Shown in pieces: positions 1,131-31,920 of a DNA stretch of 31,920 nucleotides. Position 1 is the first letter of the stretch; every line of letters begins with the position of its first letter. Under the pieces are notes generated by a model, which ran no database searches, had not been told where the DNA came from, and saw nothing but the letters and a program-made list of their open reading frames with translations. The position numbers and the translations under genes were made by a program. This stretch comes from a virus. The stretch lies in IMG/VR virus record IMGVR_UViG_3300010430_000323, positions 1-31,920 of that record. One strand, 5' to 3'.

Positions 1131-1610
1131 TTAAGGTGCTACTGTTAACGGTGTACATTCGCTTTGAATTACTGCTGTAAATGGTATAAAAACCTGTACT
1201 AACTTAGGGTTGTGAACATCTAAGCCAAAGAACCCCTTGCCCCATTCAATGCGTCGCTTTCCTGTTGCTTTTGTTTGACCGTTGATGTTTCCTATTACCT
1301 TTAAAGCAAGTTCGTTTAAGTCGCTTTGCTTCTTGAATACAGTCATTGCAGCCCTTTCGGACTCATGGAACGTGTCATAAAAGAACAGCTTACCTTGAAA
1401 CGTTTGTAAGCCTGTTCGGTTATTACTTTGAACGCCTGTTAACTCAAAATCTGGCGAACATTCAAACAGCATTGAAGGATAAGCGTTACTAGCAGCCCCG
1501 TTATTATACCAAACTTTATCATAATGAAAGTTTAAAGGTGGCGCTGGACTTAATGGAACATAAGCATTTGCAGCCGTTTGAAAAATTAATACTAGTGCTT
1601 CGTAAGTCAT
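1131..1610 (-). CDS. Putative tail terminator/tail completion protein
   Basis: The protein has 159 aa, with no transmembrane segment or catalytic motif. It is placed between the connector-region gene and the gp10-like gene, where siphoviruses usually carry the tail terminator or tail completion protein. Size and position fit that role, but I see no diagnostic motif. The ATG at 1610-1608 overlaps the TGA (1609-1607) of the minus-one reading frame of the upstream gene in an ATGA arrangement. This coupling is strong evidence that the upstream protein normally ends here and not at 1681. Alternative: another head-tail joining protein. Confidence 0.5.
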   Translation of the reverse strand: MTYEALVLIFQTAANAYVPLSPAPPLNFHYDKVWYNNGAASNAYPSMLFECSPDFELTGVQSNNRTGLQTFQGKLFFYDTFHESERAAMTVFKKQSDLNELALKVIGNINGQTKATGKRRIEWGKGFFGLDVHNPKLVQVFIPFTAVIQSECTPLTVAP

Positions 1611-2475
1611 TCTGTTAATTTTAAGTTAAATATTTTTAGAACGTCAAACGCTCTTTTGTTCATTACTGCTTCAAGCGGTGTTACGTCGTTAGTATTGAAA
1701 ACTCCAGTTTCCGCAACTTTGATAGCAACAATCTCCCAATAGTGGTTCTTGATAGTAATCGTCTTAGCTGTTGTTGTGCTAATACTCTTTGAATCGGTGC
1801 TGGTGGGTTCTTGGTCGTAGATAAGCGGAAATAGTCGTTGTATTTCTCTAACAACTCGACAAAAAAAAAGTAAGCTGACCAGCCATACAAAGCGTTTACT
1901 TCACCAAAGACCCTAGCACGTTGTACTACGTCTTCACTAGAATCATTACCATCTGAATATAACAAAGCGAATAATTGAACCAGTGAAGGAATACCACCTT
2001 GATTTTTATTTTCTTCGATCATCTTGGTTAACTGGCTACTAATCATGAACTGCCTAAAATTAGCTTTACCGAATAACATTTCAGCGCCTCCAATCGTTTT
2101 AAGCGGTTCTATGATGTTATAAGTTTTTTTCTTGTGCGTGAACTCTTTTAACTGCACATAGCTTTCAGGTTGCTTTAAAAAGTGCTTACAATGGTCGTAA
2201 AGCCAGTTAACACTTAAACCATTAACATCGTTACCCTCAATCGGTACCAGCCTTAATTCATCTACTGTAAAATCACTCCATAAGCTGATCCAATTTAATT
2301 TAAACTCAAACAACTTACTATCGTCGAATGTTTCACCATCGTTTAATAAGTATCGCTTGGTTTCATTGTCTAAACCGCTAACATATTTATACGAAGAAGC
2401 TAATTCATTGAGCGTAATGTCAACAAATTCGTCTTTTAAATTCTTTTTAGTATCGTTTGCATTAAGATTTAACAC
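1607..2475 (-). CDS. Head-tail region protein with a T9 frameshift site (264 aa in frame 0, 289 aa after a -1 shift)
   Basis: The uninterrupted frame runs from ATG 2475 to a stop at 1681 (264 aa). Its last 60 residues after the run at 1861-1869 are Arg/Leu-rich and look like a shadow frame. A nine-T run on the coding strand (codons TTT TTT TTT) holds a perfect T TTT TTT slippery heptamer. Shifting by -1 there gives a normal-looking C-terminus (ending FNLKLTE) that stops at TGA 1609-1607, overlapping the next ATG. The product would be 289 aa. This is either programmed frameshifting, transcriptional slippage, or a homopolymer error or mutation. I do not recognise the family. It lies between the capsid and tail-completion genes, and the start overlaps the previous gene by 14 bases. 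A connector or tail assembly chaperone are possibilities. Confidence 0.65.
1861..1869 (-). promoter_or_regulatory. T9 slippery sequence, candidate -1 frameshift site
   Basis: Nine consecutive T on the coding strand are read TAC TTT TTT TTT GTC in frame 0. The run contains T TTT TTT, at which both tRNAs can re-pair after slipping back one base. Runs of nine or more A or T are also known to cause RNA polymerase slippage. The downstream -1 frame is open for about 85 codons and ends in an ATGA junction with the next gene. Confidence 0.6.
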
Positions 2476-2749: not shown

Positions 2750-4009
2750 TTATGGAGTTTCTAAAGCAGCTTTTGCTGTCACGAAATTTCCGTAAACGAA
2801 TGATGTTCTATCATTGTTTTCTACGTAACAAACAGCTCTTACTTCACCTCTAATCGTTTTGAAGTTTTTAACGAAGTTATCAGCGTTGTAACCAATCTCA
2901 ACAGTAAAACCTTTCTTGTAATCCACGTTCGCTTTTGTGAAGTCTCCCATTAGGAAATCACCAGCCGTAACCATTGTAGACTTAATAACCGGTACACCAT
3001 CGAAAGAAAGAGTTCCAGCGATTAATTGAAGTCTTTCAATATAACGCTTATCAGTCGAAGAAACTTTTTGCAATAACAAAGAAGTAACATCTGAAGGATT
3101 CATAAAGATAGCTGTAGGAGCTGGACAGTTAGCCAATTCAATTTGGTTCTGTGCTACTGCAAGAACATCAACTTCGTTAGCGTTGTCAACAGTACCAGCA
3201 AAAGTACCAGCTGCAAAAACAGGAGAAACTGTTACAATTCCGTTAAGAACTGGGCTTACACCTGAACCACTGTATACACCTTGCTCTAAAGCTAATCTAA
3301 CTTTAGTAGTAAGTTTGTTTTGAATCAAAGAAGTAATTCCTTCAACATCTTCTAACATTTCATCAGTTGCAGTAATGTAAGCTGTGATCTTTTCAACTTT
3401 TTGAGAACCAACAACTAAATCAAAGTCAATGTTGTTCTTAATAAGTCCTTCACCAGTTGCACCTGCTGTACCACTTTCATTGGTTACATAAACCCACTCT
3501 TTAACATTAGATCCAATTGAACCAACAGTAACAATGTCTAAAAGCGTTGTAGCTCTTTCCTTTACATCGCCTATCATTGGGTTTCTGTCAGCCTGTGGTA
3601 TTTGTCCAGTTGTGTTACCAGCTAAAGACATATCAGCCTTATTAACTGTGAACTTTACATTTTCTCTACTTGCTCCACTTGCCAATGCTTTCAAAGCATC
3701 AGATTTAGCATCTACCAATTCTTTGATAGTTACATTCTTTGCTTCAGCTTCACCTTTAGAAAGTTTCTTCATGTAAACACCTTGCTCTTTCAATACCGTT
3801 TGAAGTGCTACAAATTGCTTTGTAATGTTAGCTTCTAATTCTGCTTTCATTGCGCTTACATCTTCAGTAGATGCTTTTAATTCGATAGCTGACTCAATAG
3901 CCGCTTTACTTGCTTCGTTGTACTCATTGTACAAGCTCGCTTGTGCATCTGCATCTAACTTAGTAATGTCACTTACTTCTTTAGTTGCTAAAAATTCTTT
4001 AAATTTCAT
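2750..4009 (-). CDS. Major capsid protein, HK97 fold
   Basis: The protein has 419 aa. Residues 1 to about 115 are helical and charged with coiled-coil character, the scaffold-like delta domain of HK97-type capsid proteins, normally removed by the prohead protease encoded just upstream. The rest has the expected pattern: an N-arm (SLAGNTTGQIPQADRNPM), a strand-rich region with VTNESGTAGATGEG, and a P-domain followed by an A-domain with IFMNPSD. The length is typical. The gene is isolated by a strong terminator downstream and has an A/T-rich leader (ATTAATAATTAAAA, 9 bases before the ATG) shared with the tail tube candidate, which suggests very high translation. Confidence 0.92.
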   Translation of the reverse strand: MKFKEFLATKEVSDITKLDADAQASLYNEYNEASKAAIESAIELKASTEDVSAMKAELEANITKQFVALQTVLKEQGVYMKKLSKGEAEAKNVTIKELVDAKSDALKALASGASRENVKFTVNKADMSLAGNTTGQIPQADRNPMIGDVKERATTLLDIVTVGSIGSNVKEWVYVTNESGTAGATGEGLIKNNIDFDLVVGSQKVEKITAYITATDEMLEDVEGITSLIQNKLTTKVRLALEQGVYSGSGVSPVLNGIVTVSPVFAAGTFAGTVDNANEVDVLAVAQNQIELANCPAPTAIFMNPSDVTSLLLQKVSSTDKRYIERLQLIAGTLSFDGVPVIKSTMVTAGDFLMGDFTKANVDYKKGFTVEIGYNADNFVKNFKTIRGEVRAVCYVENNDRTSFVYGNFVTAKAALETP

Positions 4010-6229: not shown

Positions 6230-7390
6230 TTAAGAGTTTTTGTACCTATAAAATTTTTCCGTATAACGAAGTGGGTCTAATAGATGGTTTTCGGTATCTG
6301 TTGGTACTTCTCCTGTCTTATCTAACCAAACATAATTATTTAGTTCTCGTATTAAATTCAGGCTGTTAGGCGTTACTTTAAAGCTCCAGTTTTGAAGGTG
6401 CCTAATACCTATAACAATTTTCTCTTTACCTAGTCCCATTATATTAAAACCATCATTTTTTATACCTCTTATTTGTGTAGGATCAGCACTATCAGCAAGT
6501 ATAACGCTGTTTTTGTTTGGTATCTTAGCGTTAAGAAGCTCAATTATTTCGTTAGGGCTTAGATTGCTTTTGTATATTTCTTCGTGTAAATAGATTGTCA
6601 TAGTTGACTTATCAAATGCAACCTTTAACAACGTGAACGGGTCTTTAAATCCAAAGTCAATACCGTACATAACAGGAATATTTTCGTCAAATTCTCCAAT
6701 ACTCCAATTATTAAATATAGCACCTTCAACAACTCCCTTCTTTCCTAAACCATAAACACGCCACCAGTTAAACCAATGACCTTGTATTCCCTTACTTACT
6801 TCTTCATCATGCTTTTTCTTTCCTTCTTTAAATTCTGTTATTTGTGAAGGTGAAAGGTTTTCTAAGTTATCAAGGAAAGTACTGTTAAGAACTATTGCGT
6901 TATCTCTTGCGCTGATCCCTTCCTGATCTACCCAAAAATCAACACTAGGGTTATAATCAATGAACACTGTTTCAGTTGTCCTTTGAATAAGCTGGTGTAT
7001 TACTTTCCACTTCATATTATTCGCTTCATTGATGAAAAGAATATCCCGTTGCGCTCCTAGTATGCCACCTATCTTATCAGCTCCAATAAATCTAATTGTG
7101 GTTTTGCCTATTGTGTAAGTGTATGGCGTTTTAATTTTTACCTCATCTAGGTTTTCACCTTCACCTTGCAGGATTAAATCAAAGTCAGTAATTGCACCAT
7201 CCCGTAAATGTGGGATACTGATAGAAATAACGTGAATGATTCTTTTTTTAGGGCTGTTTTTAGCCAGTATGTAAAGCAGTTGTAATGTGCTGTACGTCTT
7301 TGAGCTACGAGAACCACCGGAATTTATGATAAACCTGTACCCTTCTTGATAGGCCTTTCTTGTTTTCGTGAAGGTGTTACTTAGTCTCAT
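6230..7390 (-). CDS. terL: Terminase large subunit
   Basis: The protein has 386 aa and is the packaging ATPase and nuclease. Walker A is GGSRSSKT (residues 25-32) and Walker B is ILFINEAN (117-124, with the catalytic Glu). The RNase-H-like nuclease half shows GIDFGFKDP (243-251, Asp245), ILADSADP (297-304, Asp300) and HLLDPLRY near the C-terminus. This pattern fits the Terminase_3 (XtmB-like) group. It starts at 7390, only 11 bases after a terminator T-tract, so expression needs read-through or a promoter inside the terminator region. The portal follows directly. Confidence 0.95.
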   Translation of the reverse strand: MRLSNTFTKTRKAYQEGYRFIINSGGSRSSKTYSTLQLLYILAKNSPKKRIIHVISISIPHLRDGAITDFDLILQGEGENLDEVKIKTPYTYTIGKTTIRFIGADKIGGILGAQRDILFINEANNMKWKVIHQLIQRTTETVFIDYNPSVDFWVDQEGISARDNAIVLNSTFLDNLENLSPSQITEFKEGKKKHDEEVSKGIQGHWFNWWRVYGLGKKGVVEGAIFNNWSIGEFDENIPVMYGIDFGFKDPFTLLKVAFDKSTMTIYLHEEIYKSNLSPNEIIELLNAKIPNKNSVILADSADPTQIRGIKNDGFNIMGLGKEKIVIGIRHLQNWSFKVTPNSLNLIRELNNYVWLDKTGEVPTDTENHLLDPLRYTEKFYRYKNS

Positions 7391-13611: not shown

Positions 13612-14910
13612 TTATTTATTTTTTAGGTTTTTATATTTACTTTCTGCTTCTTGTCTTTTTTGAGTTTCTGTTTTTGTTAAAGAAAAACCCATTGTTTTAC
13701 AAAGGTGATCATTTTTCATAATACAAATACACATTCTTTTATAGGTTGGTATTTCTTTAAATTCCTTGATATTAACATCATCTAAATAATCCATTCTTAC
13801 GGGTTTTTTTGGCGTTTTGTAATTAGTATTTTCAATTACTTCAATATCAATATTTTCAGCTTTTAGCTTTTCTATTACATCAATAGATAAACAACCTCCT
13901 CTATTTTTCCAAAATATTATTGACGTTTCAAGTTTTTTTTTATAATTCTCTTTTGATTCTTCAGGTAAAGTATTTAATAAAAATTCCATGTAACTTTTCC
14001 ATGTATGATTTTTTGGTAGTTTAATATTCCTCCATCCCATTGCAGTAGTCCCACCGTATAAACCTGTAAAATTAACACCGTTCACCCTACCTATCATTTT
14101 TCCCCAGTTTTTAGGGTCAATTACTTTATACATTTTTAAACTTTCCGAAGCCGAATCATTAAAAGGACTTGCAACCCTCATTTGATTAATTGTTATTCCT
14201 GCTTGATAAAAAACATCGTACAATTTATTGTAACTCCAATTAAATTTTGAATTAGCTATCCAAACATCTTCTGTAATATAGTCGTATATTGGGTACGAAT
14301 TATAAATGTTTTTAGATATTTCTTTAGTCCACTTCTTGTTTTCAAATATTTTATAACTTTTATCTGAATGTATAGCTCTCCACCTATTTAAACTTTCTTG
14401 AGTTCTTATACCTACAAAACAAGCTGTTTTTTCTGCATTATTTTTTTTGTGTATCCATTCGGAAAAAGAAAGCATAAACTCATAATCCCACATACCTTTT
14501 TTGTAAAAATCAAAATCATGATTAGATTCATTTATTGAGTTTTCAGGAAGATCACGAACCCAAAGTTCTTTTTTTTCATCCTCCCAAGGCAACCAATAAG
14601 ATTGACTCATTGACGTACAACATTGTGCAGCAATAGGTAAACAAACTCTGTAATAATCAAATAAATCTTCATTTTCGGTATAAACTTGATCTACATAATC
14701 TGTTGTCATTTGATATTGCGCTTCATAATCAATATGAAATAAGCCGATTTTTTTTGTTATGTTGTTTAACCTCATGTAATCAACAACTAAATTTAGCATT
14801 ATACCGCTATCTTTACCTCCTGAAAACGATAAGTAAATATTATCAAAGTTTTTAAAAGTAAAATCAATTCTTTCTAAAGAAGCTTCGTAAACGTTTTTGT
14901 TTTTTTTCAT
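13612..14910 (-). CDS. PAPS-reductase-like PP-loop protein (IbrA/DUF3440 type)
   Basis: The protein has 432 aa. The N-type PP-loop is YLSFSGGKDSGIML (26-39), which binds ATP and forms an adenylate. A second motif is VGIRTQESLNRWRA. Cys pairs are seen in AAQCCTS, and a C-terminal module (388-409) is shared with the 87-aa neighbour. It is far larger than a plain PAPS reductase and matches the IbrA/DUF3440 build, paired with a ParB-like protein. Possible roles are sulfur-related nucleic acid modification, gene regulation, or host-defence evasion; none is proven. Its promoter carries a palindromic operator. Confidence 0.78.
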   Translation of the reverse strand: MKKNKNVYEASLERIDFTFKNFDNIYLSFSGGKDSGIMLNLVVDYMRLNNITKKIGLFHIDYEAQYQMTTDYVDQVYTENEDLFDYYRVCLPIAAQCCTSMSQSYWLPWEDEKKELWVRDLPENSINESNHDFDFYKKGMWDYEFMLSFSEWIHKKNNAEKTACFVGIRTQESLNRWRAIHSDKSYKIFENKKWTKEISKNIYNSYPIYDYITEDVWIANSKFNWSYNKLYDVFYQAGITINQMRVASPFNDSASESLKMYKVIDPKNWGKMIGRVNGVNFTGLYGGTTAMGWRNIKLPKNHTWKSYMEFLLNTLPEESKENYKKKLETSIIFWKNRGGCLSIDVIEKLKAENIDIEVIENTNYKTPKKPVRMDYLDDVNIKEFKEIPTYKRMCICIMKNDHLCKTMGFSLTKTETQKRQEAESKYKNLKNK

Positions 14911-25150: not shown

Positions 25151-27856
25151 TTAAAAACTTGCTGAATCTTGAATTGTTTCTACCCTGTTAGCTACTCCGG
25201 TTGTTTCAGAAGCAACGTTCTGAACCTTAATAGTGTTGATTGAAGCTGCTATCCTAGCTTCTAAATCGGCTAAATCTAAACTGCTACTTTGATTTGTTAC
25301 ATTGTTAGTTATACCACCGTTGCCGAACTTGCTTAAAGCTCCTGTACTTGGTGAAGCAACACTGCCCAAAGCAACACCGCCGCCGTCTTGATTAATAGCT
25401 GACAACAAAGGAAGGTGTTTTGCTGTGCTTCTTTTGTTTATAATAGCTTCACCCCCTTCAGCTTCTTGATTGTTACCTAGATTTACACCACCGAAAGCGT
25501 GACTAGCTCCATGAATTACACCACCCTTTGAAAACTTTTGTGATCCAACTATTCCAGCTTGTACGGCGCTTCTTGCAATTGCAATTCCACTTAAAACAGC
25601 TGCTTGTGAAATACCAGCGGCACCAAAAGTAACAGCGTTTGCAGGGTTCGCCGCTGCTGCTGCTGCGATAGCTGAAAGTTCTTTCGCTAAGTCAATCGCA
25701 ATTACTGCAATGTCTAACTTTTTCTTTTTGTTAAAAGCAGTCTTTTCAATTTCTAGCTTTTTCTTTTCAAATTCTTCTTGAGTAATTAAACCGCCTTGCA
25801 ATTTAGCGTCAAGGTTTGCTAGTTCAATATCTTTTTCCCTGTTTGATCTGGATTCGAACCCGTTTAATAATGCTTTTCCTGAATCGGCTATTAAGTCAGC
25901 AGTTGCAGCGTTTACCTCTCTTTTAAAGTCCTCGTTTGCTTGTAATCGTTCTTTTTCTTTTTCGTCTATCCCTGCTTGTGCTTCTTGTTCTAATTCAGCT
26001 TTAGCAATTTTGTTTTCTAGCTCAACAGTTGCAACTTCTTCGCCGTTTAACTTTGCTTTTTCAACTCTTAAAGCCCCAATTGAATCAAGTAATTCACGTT
26101 CTTTTTCTAATTTTTGTTCATTGGTTTCGTCAATAGTTGCTAATTCTAATTGCCTTGCTAATTCTAAACCTTGTATTTGCTTGTCTATTAGTTCGGTTTG
26201 TTGTTTTATCTTCTCTTCAGCGGCTTTTGTTTCTGCTTTGGCTATGTCGTCAATTGCTTTTAAACGCTTATCTTCAGCAGCTTTTGCAATGCTGTTAGAT
26301 TTATTCCTAATTTCAATACTTTTTTCAGTTGCTTGAGCTTCTATTCTTTCGCGTTCTGCTATTAAGTCTTGGATTTCTGTTTGCGCTGCAATATCCGTGT
26401 CACTTCCTACAGCTTTTAACTTAGCCAGTTTTACTTGTCTGTTAACTTGATCAACCTCTAACTTAGTAACGTCTTTTAATGCTTGTTGAGCTTTTCCAGC
26501 CGCCACAAGTTGTTCTTGTGTAGTTGCGTTGGTATCTTCTGCGATTTTCTTTTGTTGAGCAAAAATTAATAACCCCTTTTCCCTTTCTCGGTTTAAACTA
26601 ATTCCAGCTCTTTCAATTTGCTTTGTGATCCTGTCAATTTCTGAACCACGTTCGGCAGCTTCACCAAAGAAATCACCAACAGCACTAGCAGCCTCCTTTA
26701 CTTTTTCAGCGTCAACACCTAAAGACAATTCAATAGTAGCGTCCTTTAATTCACTAAAAGAGCTTGTTACTTCTTGTTTAGCTGTTTCTAAATCCTTTTC
26801 AAGTTGTTCTTTATCAATAAACTTTCCAATTAAAGGAACGTCTGAAAGAACTTTCTTAATTCCTAAACCGATTAACTTAAACGAATTAATATAAGCACCA
26901 GCCGCCGCCTTTATTAGTTTTGGAACTGCTAAAATTCTAGTTATTAAATTGTCTTTTATTGCGTTACCTAAATCAATAACAGCCTGTTTTGGATCCGCAA
27001 AGGCTTTCTTTAACCTATCAAGGCCGCTTGTTGCTAAGTTCTGAACAACTCCTAGTATTGAGTTCATTATCTCTTGAAGCGGTCTTAAAACCTTTGTTAA
27101 GGCATCAACTCCACGTTGAGTAGACAAGAAAGCAGCAACTAAAGCGCCTAAAGCAACAACAATAGCACCAATCCCAGTAGCTATTAGAGCAATTCTAAAA
27201 GATTTTAACCCTTTATTTGTCGCTTTTGTACTGGCCGCTGCTCCTTTTTGGGCTGTTGTGTACTTCCCTATTGATTCTTTTACGCTCCCTAACTGAGTAA
27301 CTATACTTTGTATTTGTTGACCGAATCCACCCATTATAGGAAGTACACCCGTCATAGCGTCGCCGTAGTTACCTACATTCCTAGCTGTTGTTCCGTAACC
27401 TTTTTCAAGCTCTTTTAGTTTTTCCCCTTGATCTTTTACTTTTTTGTTTAACTCCCTACCTACTTTGGTGTTTTTTATTTCTTCTTCAGTCAACAGCCTT
27501 AAAGCGTCTTTATCTTTTACGTGTTGCGCTGCTAGTTGAGCTACTGAACCTTTAGCTAACCTATTTGCTTTTGCAGAAATATTAACAGCTTTTGAAGTCT
27601 CGTTAAATTCTTGCTGTGTTTGTTTTTGAATTAGGTTATTTTGTACCTGTTGTTCAGCTAAATCTTTTAGAGCCGCTGTCTGTTCGTCTGTTGCCCCTTT
27701 GGATTCATCAATTTCTTTTACTAAATCCTTTTCAACTTTTGACAGCTTCTTTTTTTCCGCTGCAAGTGCGTTTAATTCCTCCTGTAAAAGATTAAGCGTT
27801 TTAAGTTGTTCGTTTGCACCGTCTAACCTTACTTTTATTATTACATCGTCAGCCAT
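25151..27856 (-). CDS. Tail tape measure protein
   Basis: The protein has 901 aa. It sets tail length and passes into the host membrane during DNA injection. Residues 1-160 are helical coiled coil (LLQEELNALAAEKKKLSKVE). A hydrophobic segment lies at about 222-244 (ALIATGIGAIVVALGALV), and a further long Lys/Glu/Gln coiled coil occupies roughly 400-650. The C-terminus has the Gly-rich SKGGVIHGASHAFGGVNLG followed by EAEGGEAIINKRSTAKHLP, which I recognise from Bacteroidota tape measure proteins. At the usual 0.15 nm per residue the tail would be near 135 nm. It starts six bases after the hub-like gene. Confidence 0.88.
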   Translation of the reverse strand: MADDVIIKVRLDGANEQLKTLNLLQEELNALAAEKKKLSKVEKDLVKEIDESKGATDEQTAALKDLAEQQVQNNLIQKQTQQEFNETSKAVNISAKANRLAKGSVAQLAAQHVKDKDALRLLTEEEIKNTKVGRELNKKVKDQGEKLKELEKGYGTTARNVGNYGDAMTGVLPIMGGFGQQIQSIVTQLGSVKESIGKYTTAQKGAAASTKATNKGLKSFRIALIATGIGAIVVALGALVAAFLSTQRGVDALTKVLRPLQEIMNSILGVVQNLATSGLDRLKKAFADPKQAVIDLGNAIKDNLITRILAVPKLIKAAAGAYINSFKLIGLGIKKVLSDVPLIGKFIDKEQLEKDLETAKQEVTSSFSELKDATIELSLGVDAEKVKEAASAVGDFFGEAAERGSEIDRITKQIERAGISLNREREKGLLIFAQQKKIAEDTNATTQEQLVAAGKAQQALKDVTKLEVDQVNRQVKLAKLKAVGSDTDIAAQTEIQDLIAERERIEAQATEKSIEIRNKSNSIAKAAEDKRLKAIDDIAKAETKAAEEKIKQQTELIDKQIQGLELARQLELATIDETNEQKLEKERELLDSIGALRVEKAKLNGEEVATVELENKIAKAELEQEAQAGIDEKEKERLQANEDFKREVNAATADLIADSGKALLNGFESRSNREKDIELANLDAKLQGGLITQEEFEKKKLEIEKTAFNKKKKLDIAVIAIDLAKELSAIAAAAAANPANAVTFGAAGISQAAVLSGIAIARSAVQAGIVGSQKFSKGGVIHGASHAFGGVNLGNNQEAEGGEAIINKRSTAKHLPLLSAINQDGGGVALGSVASPSTGALSKFGNGGITNNVTNQSSSLDLADLEARIAASINTIKVQNVASETTGVANRVETIQDSASF

Positions 27857-30271: not shown

Positions 30272-31920
30272 TATTTAATTCCTTTTCTTCTGTTAGCTAA
30301 TCTAAATTTAACCCTAAAAAGTGTTTCAGGTGAAAACTTATCTTCTAAAGTACTTTCTTCTGTTGTTATCACTATTGGAAAATATTTACCAACTCCAGAA
30401 CTAGAAGATACAAAGCTGATTCTAACCATTTCTTCATTTAAAGACAATGCTAGTTGAGGTATTCCGAAAATATCACCACTATCAGAAACTCCACTGGTTG
30501 CCCATTCGGGGTTGGTAAGTATTGTTGGTAAATCAACTATTGCGCTTGTTGCAGGGTCGAAAGTTCTTATAAAATCAGAAGCGTAAGGAAGTAAGTAAAA
30601 CAAACCATCAGCCCCTAGTTCAGCTATCAAATGACCACTTGCTACATTACCTAAAAACACAGTTGTTATACTGTCATTTGAAACGTCTATTTTTATAATG
30701 TTAAACGGTGAAACTGGTGGTAACGTTGAAGAGTAAGCGAAAGCATAAATAAAACCATTAACTTCATAAGAAGTGTGGCTGTTACAAGCGTCTGTACCTT
30801 GATTGCCGAAACTTGTTAAAGCGTCTGTTGCTGTATTAATCTTTAAAAAAGCCTCGTTACCACCACTAAAACAGTAAATAAAACCATTTGAAGCATTACA
30901 AGAAGATAAATACTTAAATGAACCTACTGGAGCTGGTAAAACATTGCCAAATTCAGTAACAGAATCTGTTGAAGTGTCTATTTTTAAAATAGTTGTTACA
31001 GTCGATCCAGCTGGTGGGGCGTAAATAACACCGCTTGAAGTTATAGCTGAAGTTTGCCATTTAAAAAAAGTACCTGTTGTTGTTGGAACTGCAATAGTGT
31101 AAGTAGTATCATTAGACGGGTCTATAACTAAAATATCATCATTGAAAAAAGGTATGCAGTAAATTTTTCCATTAGGCGCCCTTTGTGCCGAGTTCCATTT
31201 TGGTAATCCACCAGCAAAAGTACCAAAGTTACTTATTGCATTTGTTGCTTTATCTATTTTTAGTACAGCCGTACCCGTTAGAGGTGGCGCATACATAAAA
31301 CCGTTACCACCATCAACCAATACACCGTATTGCTGTGATACAGATACAGAACCAAATAAGGTTGTAGACCCTAAAGCTGGAACTGAAGAAACAAACTTAC
31401 TTTGTATAGCCGCCCTTTTATTAATTAGCATCTTACTTAACCATTCGACGTGCTTTTCTGGTATTCTATCGCTGAAAAGGTCGTATTCGTAGTTGTAACT
31501 TGATTTGTAAACTAAATCACCAACATCTGTACTAACAGGTGCAACAGGTCGAACCCGTTTAAAAGTGCTATCCTTGTACTTTCCTACTCTATTAATATTT
31601 CCAGCAAAAGTATAACTGTCTTGCGCTCCTAGTTCATTAAGCCAAGATAAAGTAATAGTTTTTTCACAGTCGTTACGTAATTTGTAAACTTTTGTTTCAC
31701 TTCTTATAGTAAAAGGACTAGCAATATCACGTACTAATATCCTTACTTCGTCGATACCTGTTGAGCTATCAAAATCAAATCTATAAGTAGAAATGTCAAC
31801 TTTTTGAAAACCTAGGTATCCGGGAATATTTCTATCAGGTACTAAAACAGCTTCGTTAGTCGTAGCAACTAAAACACCGTTTAAAAGTGTTTGTATCTCC
31901 CATTCTTGCTTTGGTGTAAC
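30271..31920 (-). CDS. Baseplate/distal tail protein with inserted beta-propeller, C-terminal part (starts at 642 across the join)
   Basis: This is the continuation of the 722-aa protein from position 1. The frame has no stop from 31920 to 30271; an apparent start at 31431 is only an internal Met (residue 337). Residues about 350-660 hold six to seven repeats of roughly 45 residues with G-x-IY-x-x-P and LKID-x-x-T-x-x-x-x-x-FG, for example NGKIYCIPFF and ILKIDTSTDSVTEFG, the pattern of a beta-propeller of NHL/kelch-like type. The last part (KYFPIVITTEESTLEDKFSP) looks like the end of an original baseplate domain. The propeller is an inserted, probably exposed module for binding a host surface. 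Confidence 0.72.
   Translation of the reverse strand, partial: VTPKQEWEIQTLLNGVLVATTNEAVLVPDRNIPGYLGFQKVDISTYRFDFDSSTGIDEVRILVRDIASPFTIRSETKVYKLRNDCEKTITLSWLNELGAQDSYTFAGNINRVGKYKDSTFKRVRPVAPVSTDVGDLVYKSSYNYEYDLFSDRIPEKHVEWLSKMLINKRAAIQSKFVSSVPALGSTTLFGSVSVSQQYGVLVDGGNGFMYAPPLTGTAVLKIDKATNAISNFGTFAGGLPKWNSAQRAPNGKIYCIPFFNDDILVIDPSNDTTYTIAVPTTTGTFFKWQTSAITSSGVIYAPPAGSTVTTILKIDTSTDSVTEFGNVLPAPVGSFKYLSSCNASNGFIYCFSGGNEAFLKINTATDALTSFGNQGTDACNSHTSYEVNGFIYAFAYSSTLPPVSPFNIIKIDVSNDSITTVFLGNVASGHLIAELGADGLFYLLPYASDFIRTFDPATSAIVDLPTILTNPEWATSGVSDSGDIFGIPQLALSLNEEMVRISFVSSSSGVGKYFPIVITTEESTLEDKFSPETLFRVKFRLANRRKGIK
31798..31920. repeat. Terminal direct repeat, right copy
   Basis: Exact copy of bases 1-123. 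It marks the overlap of the circular assembly and repeats residues 174-214 of the baseplate protein in the same frame. Confidence 0.95.

Follow-up and report, generated by a model that had tools for sequence, protein, structure and literature searches.

A conserved run of nine Ts as a probable programmed slip site with dual-coded C-termini in uncultured Flavobacteria-type phages

The window analyzed here is the whole of a stretch of 31,920 nucleotides of viral DNA (IMG/VR record IMGVR_UViG_3300010430_000323). One of its genes, located between the capsid gene and the tail genes, contains a run of nine Ts (T9) which, with a high degree of confidence, we regard as a recoding site yielding two products. 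Comparison with relatives indicates a real and conserved slip site followed by C-termini that are encoded twice in the same bases, and the slip is probably programmed. The gene belongs to a group of uncultured Flavobacteria-type tailed phages.

The whole gene, through the stop of the -1 frame, covers positions 2475-1607 of the minus strand. The A9 of the plus strand at 1861-1869 is a T9 on this coding strand, in the sequence GCT TAC TTT TTT TTT GTC, and the slip site (TAC TTT TTT TTT G) holds the heptamer T TTT TTT in phase for a -1 shift. Upstream of the run, the open reading frame and the alignments define a shared N-terminal part (1870..2475, minus strand), read in frame 0 from the GTG at 2475 and 62-83% identical to its relatives. 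Past the run, frame 0 goes on for 59 residues rich in Arg, Leu and Lys until the stop at 1683-1681 (tail and stop at 1681..1860, minus strand), which gives a protein of 264 aa. The -1 frame is open for 84 residues and ends at the TGA in 1609-1607 (tail and stop at 1607..1861, minus strand). This stop overlaps, as ATGA, the ATG of the next gene in the ORF list (159 aa, 1131..1610, minus strand), a downstream neighbour that is conserved in the relatives. The fused -1 product would have 205 + 84 = 289 aa. The third frame is closed within 2-3 codons after T9. An earlier reading made from the sequence alone had described the run with its in-frame heptamer, as well as the open -1 frame with its ATGA overlap, and both descriptions hold when the coding strand is read; the 60 residues it counted in frame 0 after the run are 59.

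The presence of T9 proves nothing by itself, since about 3 A/T runs of 9 are expected from base composition in this genome of 34% GC, where 4 are present. It is the conservation across relatives that makes it significant. In addition to the lineage of the window, scans of IMG/VR and GTDB genomes provided 12 distinct lineages as well as near-identical copies; the record L002/L004, which does not differ from the window anywhere in the region searched, represents its phage in the comparisons. The most distant T9 relative in terms of fused-protein identity, L036, is at about 40%. At the levels of family, order and phylum, with about 400 genomes searched at each, we obtained one T9 copy, a contig in a Flavobacteriaceae MAG, and weak matches, two of which, single-frame homologues in chromosomes, were informative. 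The sequence-only reading had proposed a comparison of relatives, and in this comparison T9 is exact and at the same place in 13 out of 13 distinct lineages. A non-T base is found on either side and none of the lineages has T8 or T10. Since the flanking bases are never T, the run has a fixed length of nine. Scanning with a pattern permitting TTC for Phe and TAT for Tyr retrieved 15 homologous contig stretches, all of them TAC-T9-G, and two further matches that are unrelated and due to chance.

These data bear on two explanations that would deprive the run of a role in recoding. Homopolymers are prone to errors, and the run might reflect an indel or assembly error, which the earlier reading had also offered, a sequencing error, or else a decaying gene. 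Yet the same T9 is found in 13 distinct lineages that were assembled independently, and both frames are under selection (see below). Exact conservation in independent assemblies excludes an indel or assembly error, and we give next to no credence to this explanation. Homopolymers are also hypermutable (PMC1088944), and changes in the length of the T run during replication could switch the population between two proteins, a form of phase variation at the level of DNA. The variation in length typical of contingency loci is not found here, as every relative has T9 and never T8 or T10, and a length that is fixed over such large divergence points to maintenance rather than switching. Phase variation is therefore very unlikely.

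Several measures indicate that both tails are most likely proteins under selection. Past T9, the open stretch of frame 0 measures exactly 59 codons in each of 12 lineages and 68 in the farthest one, with TAA or TGA stops. If only the -1 frame were maintained, synonymous resampling in 11 lineages gives a chance of 0.0004-0.025 per lineage for such an open frame 0, probabilities that are not to be multiplied because the lineages are related by descent. The amino-acid identity of the frame-0 tail is 0.656, when the null distribution has a mean of 0.42 and a maximum of 0.46 (300 resamplings). The -1 frame is open for about 84 codons past T9 across relatives, and its tail is conserved, with 45% identity still in the farthest T9 relative. 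Its codon-position divergence falls inside the overlap and climbs past the frame-0 stop. Similarly, identical -1 residues are encoded by different codons in 25% of the cases in the overlap versus 46% after it; the value is 52% for identical frame-0 residues before the run. It is the agreement between these measures (open length, codon divergence and frame-0 identity) that makes selection on both tails the most likely interpretation. The frame-0 tail had been described as unlike a protein, a judgment contradicted by the conservation of its length, its stop position and its amino acids. In one relative (L014:4981-5301) the -1 tail has an insertion of 12 residues just past the frame-0 stop, where a single frame is coding.

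Measured between its stops, the -1 frame is open for about 95-112 codons, which would leave room for a small independent gene nested in the larger one and translated from a start of its own. This is extremely unlikely: in 11 of the 13 lineages, the part of the open -1 frame that precedes the conserved tail contains no ATG, GTG or TTG, none of the 13 has a start codon in the first 40 codons of that tail, and homologues carry the tail fused in one frame. The lack of a conserved start codon disallows an independent -1 gene.

The homologues with a single frame also inform on which of the two tails is older. When genomes were searched with the profile of the fused product, weak matches (E 0.001-0.01) were obtained to proteins from chromosomes of Flavobacteriales that are 260 aa long and encoded in a single frame. 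One of these chromosomal homologues matches phrog_25418 (5.5e-8), as well as proteins of Duneviridae phages, namely the Flavobacterium phages 2A, 23T, 6H and FPSV and the Cellulophaga phage Ingeline. Through these intermediates, the profile of the fused product matches the single-frame set with 96% probability (E=3e-9, columns 118-282), in an alignment that crosses the junction and stops just short of the end of the -1 tail. With the frame-0 profile, the alignment extends no further than residue 211, six past the run. Direct hmmscan of the T9 gene product gave no match to phrog_25418, and there is no detectable relation between the downstream 159-aa gene and the gene at the same position in Duneviridae. 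Homology between the fused -1 product and the phrog_25418 proteins of Duneviridae is thus likely on these profile comparisons and not proven, given the shallow alignments and the undetectable synteny of the next gene. Since the profile homology runs through the -1 tail, this tail is likely the ancestral one and the frame-0 tail a newer, overprinted C-terminus. The phrog_25418 proteins are of similar length (293-301 aa) and their genes are likewise located upstream of the tape measure gene, but they are encoded in a single continuous frame, without T9 and without a second tail. We also observed that the homologue in phage 6H (L038, ~6500-6560) is annotated with 191 aa instead of 293, its frame being broken, unlike that of phage 2A, by a short stretch close to where T9 would lie, which may be a sequencing error or real. 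Two of the homologues in Flavobacteriales chromosomes (L032:1082-1864 and L034:1075-1857) adjoin the same downstream gene, which does not look like a phage gene, and are possibly domesticated copies.

How the ribosome comes to read the -1 frame can be explained in two ways. In the first, RNA polymerase slips on the run. Runs of 9 A/T are established sites of transcriptional slippage in bacteria, where slippage commonly becomes relevant at nine A/T and varies strongly from one organism to another (PMC1088944, PMC5009743). The gene has two of the features associated with such slippage: a conserved run of about 9 A/T at the junction of the frames, and a trans-frame product conserved as a protein. 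Against this, some AT-rich bacteria may suppress slippage on 9T (PMC1088944). In the second, the mRNA is uniform and the same two proteins arise by ribosomal -1 frameshifting, with the tRNA-Phe of the P and A sites slipping back by one base on U UUU UUU. The in-phase and invariant T TTT TTT, a heptamer of the form X XXY YYZ, agrees with this, and -1 shifts are common in phage tail genes (PMC5009743).

The two explanations differ in what they ask of the sequence. The codons TAC TTT TTT TTT have zero synonymous changes on the tree of the N-terminal region, while 33 other conserved two-fold codons have a mean of 2.8 synonymous changes each on the same tree, none of the 33 being unchanged. A ribosomal slip requires T TTT TTY only, and would accept a third codon TTC or a TAT before the run. 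It does not account for the consistent absence of TTC at the third codon and of TAT at the Tyr that precedes it. Because TAC and the third TTT are also invariant, a mechanism that uses the whole run is favoured, albeit not conclusively; a fixed third TTT alone has a probability of about 0.06 (Poisson estimate), which is weak evidence.

Ribosomal frameshifting could be stimulated by a downstream RNA structure, and there is a weak AU-rich hairpin about 5 nt after the site, in which some pairs alternate between A-U and G-U and 93% of cells are paired. Its consensus folding is better than that of column-shuffled alignments (-4.4 vs -0.6 +/- 1.3). Yet it has no compensatory pair change, only 9 of its 14 pairs can form in the farthest T9 relative, and its stability is ordinary when set against the rest of the gene. 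Rfam has no RNA family matching the T9 region. Overall, folding of each sequence, RNAalifold and pair counting, all applied to stem-loops, together with Rfam, revealed no convincing stimulatory RNA. Ribosomal frameshifting, the first choice of the sequence-only reading, keeps an appreciable but lesser probability, as it accounts less well for the fixed nine Ts and the TAC. The exact length of the run and the lack of a supported stimulatory structure lead us to prefer transcriptional slippage, and the patterns of conservation make it somewhat probable that the slip is mainly of this kind.

Under transcriptional slippage, T9 would make two proteins from one gene of the head/tail module, with a common N-terminus of about 205 residues. 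The unslipped mRNA with U9 would be translated in frame 0 into the 264-aa form with its short basic tail. When RNA polymerase adds one U (U10, or else U7, a net change of -2), translation would follow the -1 frame and give the 289-aa form, whose tail would be that of the ancestral single-frame family. The earlier proposal that a slip at T9 takes frame 0 into the -1 frame, with proteins of 264 and 289 aa as the outcome, is probably correct. Historically, an indel in a T run of the ancestral gene was likely rescued by slippage, after which a new tail would have been overprinted in frame 0. That slippage occurs, that it is mainly transcriptional, in what ratio the products arise and what each form does are points that we infer. 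We give about even chances to the full scenario, in which slippage of the host RNA polymerase at T9 would act as a fixed-ratio switch, both C-termini being written in the same 180 bases, with slippage restoring the ancestral tail and the frame-0 tail being the overprinted one.

The genomic context provides some indications on the function of the gene. The major capsid protein, of the HK97 type (phrog_10, E=3e-31; PF05065, E=1.1e-20), is encoded two genes upstream, at 2750..4009 on the minus strand. The T9 gene follows this capsid gene and precedes those of the tail, and four genes (159, 161, about 770 and 802 aa) separate it from the tape measure gene at 25151-27856. From this position we infer that its product is a structural or assembly protein of the head/tail module, in two forms. 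The frame-0 protein has no significant match in Pfam or PHROG, the fused proteins have no PHROG match to a chaperone, and a PDB search found no relatives of the gene product. AlphaFold models are poor, with a mean pLDDT of 40 for the frame-0 protein and 49 for the -1 ORF. We rejected a tail assembly chaperone, as the location, the family searches and the length of frame 0 (59-68 codons past the slip) do not fit. Matches by tblastn to the portal gene of a Vibrio phage and to genes of cyanophages S-TIM (E 0.04-0.9) involved the wrong genes or frames and resemble chance. As to the record itself, positions 1-123 and 31798-31920 are an exact direct repeat of 123 bases, and the ORF of about 770 aa (a length that counts the repeat twice) crosses the joined ends. 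Because of this terminal repeat and of the ORF reading across it, the record is probably a complete genome, circular or circularly permuted, of about 31.8 kb. Elsewhere in it, the coding strand of a PAPS-reductase-like gene (13612-14910, minus strand; phrog_2302, E=1e-104) contains five runs of A8-A9, at 13933, 14441, 14569, 14748 and 14900, which are potential slippage sites as well.

To our knowledge, the programmed slippage described in phages consists mostly of ribosomal frameshifting in the genes of tail chaperones. The coupling of a homopolymer slip to about 180 bases of dual coding would show slippage creating a protein besides rescuing one, and annotation pipelines would either treat such a gene as disrupted or overlook one product of the two. 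The phage tail assembly chaperones G/GT resemble the T9 gene in having a -1 shift in a gene of the structural module and two products that share their N-terminus (PMC5009743). They differ from it in that the T9 gene does not immediately precede the tape measure gene, has no chaperone match, and has a frame 0 that runs far past the slip. The A9 of Thermus dnaX and the run of Shigella mxiE are, like T9, A/T runs in a coding region that give two products (PMC5009743, PMC1088944), but the T9 gene, unlike them, is a gene of a phage head/tail module. Moreover, the slipped frame of dnaX ends almost at once, whereas here 59 and 84 codons follow the run and both stretches are under selection. In P3N-PIPO of potyviruses, polymerase slippage on a short homopolymer likewise opens a conserved overlapping frame behind a shared N-terminus (PMC5009743), in an RNA virus rather than in a DNA phage. 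In PIPO, frame 0 is the canonical one and the slipped frame is the extra, whereas in the T9 gene it is the slipped frame that matches the likely ancestral family and frame 0 that appears to be the addition.
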